The position numbers were made by a program, and so were the translations under genes. The notes under the pieces were generated by a model. That model was given only the letters and a program-made list of their open reading frames with translations, had not been told where the DNA came from and did not search any database. From Planctomycetota bacterium (lineage in GTDB: Bacteria > Planctomycetota > UBA1135 > JACQFD01): a DNA stretch of 64,000 nucleotides. Below are positions 1-35,486 of this stretch, piece by piece (the stretch's first letter is position 1; the number at the start of each line of letters is the position of its first letter). The stretch is from NCBI GenBank assembly GCA_016200225.1, contig JACQFD010000002.1, forward strand, positions 1 through 64,000. Direction: 5' to 3'.

Positions 1-101
1 GCGCAGCCACGCTTAAAGAAGGACTGCATCGTATTGTTAATAATTTACCCCCGGCATCCTCCCCGCGTCTCCGAGTAAATCAACCGCCTCGTATTCCATG
101 A
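1..101 (+). CDS. GxxExxY protein, C-terminal end (cut by window start)
   Basis: The open frame enters from the left edge (first full codon at base 3) and stops with TGA at 99-101. The encoded tail, including LKEGLHRIVNNLP and the ending QPPRIP, is nearly identical to the tail of the complete GxxExxY gene at 331-762. This is therefore the end of a tandem paralogue about 661 bp upstream. The last residues (SPRLRV) are encoded by a piece of the ccgcgtctccg repeat that fills the intergenic DNA, so the gene end merges into the repeat. Function as for the next gene. Only about 33 codons are visible. Confidence 0.8.
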   Translation, partial: AATLKEGLHRIVNNLPPASSPRLRVNQPPRIP

Positions 102-112
102 ATCAGATCTCG

Positions 113-325
113 TTTCCACGCGGAGCCGCGGAGAGTTCGCGCCGACACGCAACTCAATTGTAATATTTCAGAGCCGGAATTCCACGCGGAGACGCGGAGA
201 AAACCAGAACTTACAATTATATTTTTGGTTTTCTCCGCGTTCTCTCCGTCCTCCGCGTCTCCGCGTGGAACTCTGGTTCTGGCTCCGCGTCTCCTTCTCG
301 CTCCGCGTCTCCGCGTGAAACTCTC
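113..325. repeat. Long inverted-repeat block A (GxxExxY-associated)
   Basis: This gene-free stretch is filled with copies of ACGCGGAGACGCGGAG and its reverse complement CTCCGCGTCTCCGCGT. The best-defined unit is an 85-bp core at 183-267. It begins CACGCGGAGACGCGGAG and ends with the exact reverse complement, enclosing AAAACCA, then TTACAATTATA, then TGGTTTT, so it folds into a strong hairpin. Extra half-units follow up to base 325, directly before the ATG at 331. Blocks at 781-1118 and 20651-20820 carry the same core. Confidence 0.85.
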
Positions 326-330
326 ATACA

Positions 331-762
331 ATGAAAGAATTAGACGACATCACCGGTATTATTGTAGATGCGGCGGTGAAGATTCATAAAGAACTTGGTC
401 CAGGTCTTCTTGAATCGGTTTATGAAGTACTACTCGTTCGCGAATTGGAGCGTCGGGGTTTGCGCTTGGAGCGTCAAAAATGTATTCAAGTCGAATACGA
501 CGGAGTCGTATTCGAGGAAGGCTTCCGCGCGGATCTTATGGTTGAAGCGCTGGTCATCGTTGAAGTCAAGTCCGTCGAGCGCCTTGCACCGGTTCACGGC
601 AAACGACTATTAACTTATCTTAGAATTACGAAACTGCCTGTCGGTCTGCTTATTAATTTCGGCGCAGCCACGCTTAAAGAAGGACTGCATCGTATTGTTA
701 ATAATTTACCCGCCGCGTCTTCCCCGCGACTCCGGGTAAATCAACCGCCCCGTATTCCATGA
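331..762 (+). CDS. GxxExxY protein (PDDEXK_3 family, putative nuclease fold)
   Basis: 143 residues. The family signature GLLESVY (G-x-x-E-x-x-Y) lies at about residues 26-32, within ELGPGLLESVYE. A PD-(D/E)XK-like core follows: AD at about 71-72, then VEVKS near 80-84. The family is usually annotated as of unknown function with a restriction-endonuclease-like fold; nuclease activity here is inferred from the D...ExK pattern only. The ATG is preceded by repeat DNA without a Shine-Dalgarno motif. The gene is the second of a tandem pair and both sides are flanked by long inverted repeats. The C-terminal tail PRLRV is repeat-encoded, which suggests the 3' end was extended by, or evolved together with, the repeat. 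Confidence 0.9.
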   Translation: MKELDDITGIIVDAAVKIHKELGPGLLESVYEVLLVRELERRGLRLERQKCIQVEYDGVVFEEGFRADLMVEALVIVEVKSVERLAPVHGKRLLTYLRITKLPVGLLINFGAATLKEGLHRIVNNLPAASSPRLRVNQPPRIP

Positions 763-780
763 ATCAGAGAATATTGAACG

Positions 781-1118
781 CTGAGACGTGGAGACGCGGA
801 GAGCCGAGGCGACACGCCATGCAATTGTTACGTTCCGGAGCCAGCATTTCACGCGGAGACGCGGAGAGAAGACCTGCACGCGGAGACGCGGAGAAAACCA
901 GAACTTACAATTGTATTCTTGGTTTTCTCCGCGTTCTCTCTGTTCTCCGCGTCTCCGCGTGCAGTTCTCCTTCTGGCTCCGCGTCTCCGCGTGAATTTCT
1001 CGTTCTGGCTCCGCGTCTCCTTCTCGCTCCGCGTCTCCGCGTGAATTTCTCGTTCTGGCTCCGCGTCTCCGCGTGGAATTCTCGTTCTGCCTCCGCGTCT
1101 CGCTCTGGCTCCGCGTTC
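781..1118. repeat. Long inverted-repeat block B (GxxExxY-associated)
   Basis: This stretch of over 300 bp holds no credible gene. It contains the 85-bp hairpin core at 877-961, in the same orientation as block A, with an additional ACGCGGAGACGCGGAG half-unit on the left. On the right is a run of degenerate units of the type TTCTCGTTCTGGCTCCGCG up to about 1118. The left flank (about 800-850) is also homologous to the left flank of block A, so the tandem duplication covers gene plus repeats with a period of about 661 bp. Reading frames across it encode only Arg/Ser-rich low-complexity sequence and are not genes. Confidence 0.85.
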
Positions 1119-6118: not shown

Positions 6119-6196
6119 CGGGGCGTGGCGCAGCTTGGCTAGCGCGCTTCCTTGGGGTGGAAGAGGTCGCAGGTTCAAATCCTGTCGCCCCGACCA
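6119..6196 (+). tRNA. tRNA-Pro (anticodon GGG)
   Basis: Complete cloverleaf. The acceptor stem CGGGGCG (6119-6125) pairs with CGCCCCG (6186-6192), followed by A and an encoded CCA (6194-6196). The anticodon arm is CTTCC-TTGGGGT-GGAAG with anticodon GGG. The T-arm contains GGTTCAAATCC. It reads CCC codons. It lies alone between the acyl-CoA ligase and the beta-lactamase-like gene. Confidence 0.96.
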
Positions 6197-20650: not shown

Positions 20651-20820
20651 TTTACGCGGAGACGCGGAGCGAGAACGAGACGCGGAGCCAGAACGGAGAT
20701 TCCACGCGGAGACGCGGAGGCCAGAGAGAACGCGGAGAGAACCAAAAATACAATTGTAAGTTCTGGTTTTCTCCGCGTCTCCGCGTGCAGGTCTTCTCTC
20801 CGCGTCTCCGCGTGAAATTC
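20651..20820. repeat. Orphan long inverted repeat, block C (opposite orientation)
   Basis: The same 85-bp hairpin core as in blocks A and B lies at 20703-20787 but inverted, with about four differences from the core at 877-961 by eye. Half-units GCGGAGACGCGGAG flank it on the left and CTCCGCGTCTCCGCG on the right. No GxxExxY gene adjoins it: the neighbours are the PepSY lipoprotein and the zinc dehydrogenase. The gene-free stretch 20511-20868 holds nothing else. Confidence 0.85.
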
Positions 20821-34586: not shown

Positions 34587-34650
34587 TACAAGTTTAGGTT
34601 GGTCAATCAAATCACACTGCGCGCGTGAAATTTGTTCTTTTCGCTGCTCG

Positions 34651-34758
34651 GTATTTCCTGGCGATTACAAAGATTCACCTCCACCAGCCCTTTCAGTTAT
34701 ATTAGTATTTCCTGGCGATTACAAAGATTCACCTCCACCAGCCCTTTCAGTTATATTA
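34651..34758. repeat. Exact 54-bp tandem direct repeat, two copies
   Basis: Copies at 34651-34704 and 34705-34758 are identical; each starts GTATTTCCTGGCGATTACAA and ends TCAGTTATATTA. The period is a multiple of 3, so a frame crosses it, but no start signal or flanking homology supports a gene. It lies between REP units C and D. Confidence 0.85.
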
Positions 34759-34815
34759 CCAACGATCTGTGCGTCCTGGCATCCGCCAAAGTCAAGAAGG
34801 ACGGTGAAATAAGGC

Positions 34816-34864
34816 GGGACTGGCACCTGATTTTGGCCTTCGGCCAAAATCACGCGCCAGTCCC
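34816..34864. repeat. Single REP unit D
   Basis: 49 bp, identical or nearly so to unit C at 34538-34586: GGGACTGGCACCTG, TTTTGGCCTTCGGCCAAAA hairpin, ACGCGCCAGTCCC. It lies about 60 bp past the stop of the RAYT gene on the minus strand. Confidence 0.85.
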
Positions 34865-34925: not shown

Positions 34926-35486
34926 TCATAGTGAGCTGGTGAGCTCGTCTTCAGTGCGAGCATCATTTACAAAATCTTTCCAGTTCGCGGGGATGGGTAC
35001 GGGCCATGTATCAACCAAGGATGCCGCCGACGAATTTGAAGATGCCCGCCGCCACGCGCTTGACCAGCGCCAGTCTTCCGCTCGCAAGACCAGGCCAGCT
35101 TTTACAGGGTTACGTTCGACGTACCGGCATACCAGATAGAATTGCCGATCGGTCGAGACGGGAATTGATTTGAAACGTCCCTGATAGATGGGCCCCCCGC
35201 CATAACAATTGTGATTCGCGCGCCATCGGAGGGAGTGGGATCCCGTCAACCATTTCATAAATTCGGATAGCTCTCCGTCCTTCGAGGGCGCCACGACGAG
35301 ATGCCAGTGATTTGGCATAATACAATATGCGAGGACTCGGGTACCAAGTCGATTGCGAGCTTGAAACAGTAATGATTCAAATGCCGCGTAATCGAGGTCG
35401 GTCTTGAACAGAGTTTCGCGATCGACGGCGCGATTCAACACATGCTGAATCGTGCCGCCGGTCGCAATGCGGGAGACGCGAGGCAT
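34926..35486 (-). CDS. REP-associated tyrosine transposase (RAYT, IS200-like Y1)
   Basis: 186 residues from the ATG at 35486 (MPRVSRIATGGTIQHVLNRA), the normal RAYT beginning; longer in-frame extensions are unsupported. HUH motif as HWHL (MPNHWHLVV, about residue 62) and the catalytic-Tyr region YVERNPVKAGLV. RAYTs are single-copy domesticated relatives of IS200/IS605 enzymes that nick and move REP palindromes. Fitting that, four REP-like units lie directly downstream (34439-34864) and two more at 46968-47083. It is shorter than many, and the ends are complete. Confidence 0.9.
   Translation of the reverse strand: MPRVSRIATGGTIQHVLNRAVDRETLFKTDLDYAAFESLLFQARNRLGTRVLAYCIMPNHWHLVVAPSKDGELSEFMKWLTGSHSLRWRANHNCYGGGPIYQGRFKSIPVSTDRQFYLVCRYVERNPVKAGLVLRAEDWRWSSAWRRASSNSSAASLVDTWPVPIPANWKDFVNDARTEDELTSSL

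Follow-up and report, generated by a model that had tools for sequence, protein, structure and literature searches.

Genes for GxxExxY proteins lie, in many lineages, between inverted short-period repeat arms, and in the genome studied here arms of the same family recur in dispersed hairpins, most of which adjoin no such gene. We analysed a 64,000-nucleotide stretch of DNA from a Planctomycetota bacterium (the window), together with its own genome and relatives of its GxxExxY gene elsewhere. Comparison of these sequences indicates that the tie between GxxExxY and the hairpins is real, and broader than a sequence-only reading of the window had proposed. We give a probability of roughly 0.55 to the reading that hairpins spread because the GxxExxY protein recognises the arms and cuts them, in an organisation like that of RAYT transposases and REP sequences but with an unrelated enzyme. 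The findings suggest that bacterial chromosomes harbour a partnership of enzyme and repeat that has gone unrecognised. To our knowledge no function has been assigned to GxxExxY proteins, although they occur in many phyla, and most of the common short-period intergenic repeats lack an explanation; the link would provide a testable role for the protein and a candidate maker for the repeats. No earlier report of it was found in the open-access literature, subscription papers and preprints lying largely outside that search.

Hairpins and the GxxExxY gene of the window

The window holds three hairpin cores (Table 1), each of which starts with CACGCGGAGACGCGGAG, ends with the reverse complement of CACGCGGAGACGCGGAG and includes the common inner sequence AACCAGAACTTACAATT (at 202, 896 and, on the minus strand, 20752). 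The sequence-only reading had given these positions, ends and inner text, and all are confirmed by the coordinates. A 17-mer sought with at most two mismatches occurs 15 times in the window against a mean of 0.05 in shuffled sequence, and single-strand folding of the three cores gives z values of -8.1, -8.2 and -6.8; the hairpins are far above chance expectation. Rfam gives no match at the hairpins and no rRNA match within window positions 1-21500. Because about 12 genomic copies, including 877-961 and 20703-20787, have a longer left side in common (CACGCGGAGACGCGGAG plus AGAAGACCTG), the 85 bp are the conserved inner portion of the repeat unit and not its boundary. A tRNA gene lies at 6119-6193 (+).

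Table 1. Positions of GxxExxY genes, hairpin cores and single arms in the window
Feature	Position	Strand	Remark
3' end of second GxxExxY copy	1..101	+	truncated by contig start
Hairpin core, copy 1	183..267	+	exactly 85 bp
Single arm 5' of GxxExxY gene	301..317	-	
Intact GxxExxY (PDDEXK_3) gene	331..762	+	143 aa
Degenerate right-hand arm inside ORF 3' end	712..741	+	
Extra left arm plus AGAAGACCTG	850..876	+	belongs to longer repeat unit 850-961
Hairpin core, copy 2	877..961	+	exactly 85 bp
Three more arms after copy 2	977-993, 1027-1043, 1059-1075	-	within 977..1075
Arm flanking copy 3	20653..20669	+	
Hairpin core, copy 3	20703..20787	-	exactly 85 bp; intergenic, no GxxExxY gene adjoining
Arm flanking copy 3	20798..20814	-	

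The protein encoded by the intact gene matches TIGR04256 (E=5.5e-40), and its best Pfam match is PDDEXK_3 (PF13366, E=8e-39); PF01797, the Y1 tyrosine transposase domain, is not among its Pfam matches. In the alignment, conservation or near-conservation is seen at residues E28, D68, E78 and K80, whose positions fit a PD-(D/E)XK site, and the AlphaFold2 model (pLDDT 89) has the PD-(D/E)XK arrangement. Foldseek matches of the model include PD-(D/E)XK enzymes; the best in the PDB, all of them weak (best E=6e-3), are to SSO0001, splicing endonucleases and exonucleases, and searching the PDB by sequence yielded no relative. GxxExxY is thus a member of the PD-(D/E)XK superfamily, to which family match, active-site residues and predicted fold all fit. 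Among plasmid records only six contained GxxExxY relatives, and none was found in phage records or IMG/VR contigs.

Window positions 1-101 equal 662-762 apart from the region of the degenerate arm, and a search of the window's own genome found that another contig (C11) starts with the head of a GxxExxY gene. With a tail at one contig start and a head at another, the assembly therefore breaks within a tandem array. The genome's GxxExxY complement is one intact gene plus one copy that is interrupted. In relatives such as L040, CTCCGCGTCTCCGCGCCTCCGCGTGA stands at the position of the degenerate arm. Flanking of the gene by inverted palindromic repeats holds for the family, the window gene's own right arm being degenerate.

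The motif ACGCGGAGACGCGGAG was counted 80 times in the 5.3-Mb genome, distributed over about 31 sites. Searching with the core gave 39 raw matches, of which some overlap or are partial, and these amount to about 28 related hairpins. The 18 full cores at separate sites are 95% identical by column, and the 85-bp copies are too alike for covariation to inform. The sequence-only reading had described two of the three cores as alternating with tandem GxxExxY genes and had spoken of a repeated pairing; in this genome the pairing is not regular, copy 3 having no such gene beside it and only 3 of the roughly 28 hairpins adjoining GxxExxY. The more general link that it drew between palindrome and gene is borne out elsewhere, by bracketing arms across phyla and, in Sphingomonas, by co-occurrence, empty sites and the association of arm with protein. 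Nor are the hairpins without enrichment at GxxExxY genes, because the gene's own arms belong to the hairpin family. Own-genome hairpins (among L012-L035) often adjoin the intergenic repeat GCGTCGAGCGTGTGCCACGCGCTGGCGTGT and one like AATTGGACCGGCCCCTTTTTT.

The co-occurrence of repeat and gene is weak in the window's own order. One genome of this order (G048) has 57 octad motifs and no GxxExxY gene found in an assembly 91% complete, the gene being either lost or absent from the assembly. Three GxxExxY carriers of the order (G006, G039 and G056) have none of this motif, and their arms are different or unclear.

Inverted arms around GxxExxY genes across phyla

Eighty relatives of the gene were taken from a scan of genome contigs; they include Verrucomicrobiota, Sphingomonas, Geobacter, Chloroflexi, a cyanobacterium and one Methanoculleus (archaeal) assembly. 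In many of them one arm directly precedes the start codon, with the reverse-complement arm inside the ORF's 3' end or just past it. Of 77 loci, 73% have an inverted repeat scoring at least 18 around the gene, against 0 of 400 random places of the same length at these loci. Across 95 distinct loci the median score of a gene's own arms is 23, against 9 when arms are swapped between loci, and a score of at least 14 is reached by 85 of 95 own pairs and 22% of swapped ones, a conservative comparison because swapped pairs include loci of the same spelling. The arms have a period of 8 in 62 of 85 loci and of 9 in 12, with no such peak in shuffled sequence. Their spellings vary widely (CGCGGAG, CGCAGAG, CGCGAAG, CGCGACG, CACGAAG, ACAGGATT, CGTGGTG, CCAAGCGA); as judged from these comparisons, arms differ between lineages yet match each other within a locus.

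Gene presence, hairpin number and cassettes in Sphingomonas

Evidence that hairpin number follows gene presence comes mostly from a single genus. Among 121 Sphingomonas genomes, 65 with and 56 without GxxExxY, the median number of octad motifs is 74 where the gene is present and 2.5 where it is absent (p=1e-17), and at least 20 motifs are found in 53/65 carriers and 3/56 non-carriers (p=8e-19), although the genomes are related and these tests are not fully independent. For this reason the nearest carrier and non-carrier genomes were compared: the non-carrier has fewer motifs in 29 of 30 nearest pairs, with one tie, and in all six independent close pairs. A reversed motif pattern also matches octad arrays and was left out as a null. 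Twelve carriers have fewer than 20 motifs, and of the three motif-rich non-carriers two (G107 with 67 motifs, G166 with 28) keep arms and gene remnants at the fabD-fabG junction, where a remnant is also kept in G088.

GxxExxY is usually single-copy in a Sphingomonas genome, and 50 of 53 genes lie between fabD and fabG in those genomes whose fabD-fabG place was listed. The sequence-only reading had suggested that empty sites be sought in related strains, and they are seen here: the spacing between fabD and fabG is 10-42 bp where empty and about 455-515 bp where occupied, and empty sites lack the hairpin. No target-site duplication was identified between empty and occupied junctions, where the intergenic sequence is too variable to fix the ends to the base. 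Nested hairpins are present in the genus. Hairpins standing alone were compared at glyQ-glyS, because the stretches of G061/G081 and G141/G101/G128 had too few hairpins for a comparison by synteny; gene-less hairpins occur at 14 of 28 carrier and 0 of 22 non-carrier junctions (Fisher p 6e-5), a value not to be taken at face value because the sample is not random, the junctions having been chosen partly for having gaps. At five Sphingomonas glyQ-glyS junctions (L364, L365, L369, L373 and L376) the space is filled by another palindromic repeat, CCTCCCCG..CGGGGAGGGGGACC.

In 59 cassettes at the same site, fabD-fabG, own arms score 27.2 and swapped arms 20.6, the best of 2000 permutations reaching 22.4. 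The arm type of 56 cassettes was assigned from the right arm, six of them by reading where automatic assignment had overlooked the arm or got its type wrong (L188, L203, L219, L200, L076 and L185). Arm type is correlated with GxxExxY distance when host distance is controlled (partial Mantel r=0.33, 0 of 5000 permutations) and not with host (r=-0.03); by these measures it is the protein, not the host, that arm type follows. Conservation of GxxExxY falls below that of FabG in 98% of pairs and below that of FabD in 80%. The hosts of L202 and L206 differ by 2.1% in FabG/FabD fragments and by 29% in GxxExxY, and their arm types differ too; similar pairs likewise combine near-identical hosts, differing cassettes and conserved flanks. 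We read such differing cassettes between conserved flanks as probable exchange of the whole cassette. With carriers, non-carriers and cases of gene loss at one site, Sphingomonas offers a directly testable system.

Proposed mechanism, related systems and alternatives

In the reading that we favour, a GxxExxY nuclease resident in the genome, whose gene sits between two inverted arms of 8- or 9-base units, has the hairpins as its dispersed partners lacking the gene. The PD-(D/E)XK protein would recognise the arm repeats as duplex, or as an extruded or single-stranded hairpin, and cleave at or near the arm ends; repair or copying would then put new hairpins between genes. The gene itself would rarely be mobile, and the whole cassette of gene plus arms would be exchangeable at an occupied site. 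Binding, cutting, the route of copying and the role of GxxExxY as agent are all inferred from sequence comparison. Against this mechanism count the weakness of the pattern in the window's order and the failure to identify a target-site duplication, and gene conversion without a nuclease could also keep arms near-identical.

The closest parallel is with RAYTs, Y1 (IS200/IS605-like) tyrosine transposases that are flanked by inverted REPs, whose abundance correlates with presence of the gene, and that occur as single copies, evolve faster than their neighbours and coevolve with their repeats (PMC2817692, PMC3116915). GxxExxY resembles the RAYT/REP and REPIN arrangement in having a gene between two inverted palindromic repeats with many dispersed copies, and the RAYT/REP systems in repeats associated with protein type; in Sphingomonas, though not demonstrably in the window's order, repeat abundance also tracks the gene, and the Sphingomonas gene is likewise a single copy at a fixed site that changes faster than its neighbours. 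GxxExxY differs in being a PD-(D/E)XK protein rather than a Y1 transposase, and in arms built of tandem 8- or 9-base units whose spelling varies between lineages. Because the defining Y1 domain is absent, it works like RAYT/REP without being a member, and a nuclease of unrelated origin may have given rise to an arrangement thought specific to tyrosine transposases. MITEs of DNA transposons are similar in that they are short, carry no gene, have inverted ends and occur both dispersed and nested, but here no DDE transposase was identified and target-site duplication was not seen.

A second parallel is the 23S rRNA intervening sequence, a unit of about 430 nt with inverted terminal repeats (a 28-bp stem in Coxiella) and one small S23 ORF (PMC4990558). 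Unit size, inverted terminal repeats and the single small ORF are alike, whereas the protein is different and the location is rRNA rather than the junctions of protein genes. Outside rRNA, S23 (TIGR02436) genes (L300-L329) also lie between inverted arms, for example AGTTGAGAGTTGAG or AAGTCAAAAGTCAAA; 13 of 26 such loci score at least 18, against 0.3% with swapped arms, and the arms have a period of 7 in 12 of 14 examined. S23 shares the layout, so it cannot serve as a negative control, and GxxExxY is not alone in having the arrangement. A search for S23 (TIGR02436) in the window's own genome gave no match, and control genomes gave none either. In Beggiatoaceae and cyanobacteria, intergenic repeats of the heptanucleotide TAACTGA are of unexplained origin, a mobile origin or a repeat-binding protein having been suggested (PMC4679880). 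They resemble GxxExxY arms in being short-period and intergenic, differ in their period of 7, and may belong to the S23-type arms. Tentatively, and with the balance of our judgement against it, period-8/9 GxxExxY and period-7 S23 cassettes could form one unrecognised class in which the protein reads the period of the repeat and not its sequence. Many of the short-period intergenic repeats that are so far unexplained in bacteria and archaea would then have an origin in this class.

The S23 layout also bears on an unlikely but serious alternative, in which the element acts at the RNA level as do 23S rRNA intervening sequences: the arms would form a transcript stem with the ORF in its loop, the protein would act on or protect the RNA, and dispersal would have some other cause. 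The four-helix-bundle S23 family of rRNA intervening sequences (PMC4990558) has the same layout with period-7 arms, the gene stands within its stem in operons such as fabD-fabG, some GxxExxY genes lie (by reading) between restriction genes, the weak structural matches include splicing endonucleases, and arms lack stop codons in all six frames. A pure RNA role does not predict gene-less hairpins that are intergenic and vary with gene presence between species, and the silence of Rfam at the hairpins also counts against it. It is less likely still that GxxExxY is a homing-type hitchhiker, inserting into octad hairpins that had spread otherwise, cutting empty or divergent sites and replacing alleles. 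Hairpins and gene cassettes do have common termini, and replacement of cassettes at one site between conserved flanks is compatible with homing; but non-carriers have almost no hairpins, and the hairpin is absent from empty fabD-fabG sites. That the association reflects only shared ancestry or composition, without function, is the least probable of the alternatives: the sampled genomes are indeed related, but 0/400 random places match, phylum after phylum shows the pattern in other sequences, and arm type tracks the protein rather than the host.

Mobilisation of the hairpins by another enzyme, a RAYT or IS transposase, with GxxExxY as a passenger, is already disfavoured and very improbable. 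The window does have one Y1 transposase domain, at 35109-35444 (-), but this lies 14 kb from the nearest octad with other palindromes beside it, and a PF01797 match was found in only 3 of 40 hairpin-rich Sphingomonas genomes tested; RAYT presence does not account for the repeats. The palindrome ATTTTGGCCTTCGGCCAAAAT adjoins this RAYT-like domain near 34832, and matching CAGTCCCTAC / GTAGGGACCG stretches also lie beside it; these are perhaps the domain's own REPs. Window positions ~34650-34760 are occupied by direct repeats in tandem, with a unit of about 54 bp (TATTTCCTGGCGATTACAAAGATTCACC...).
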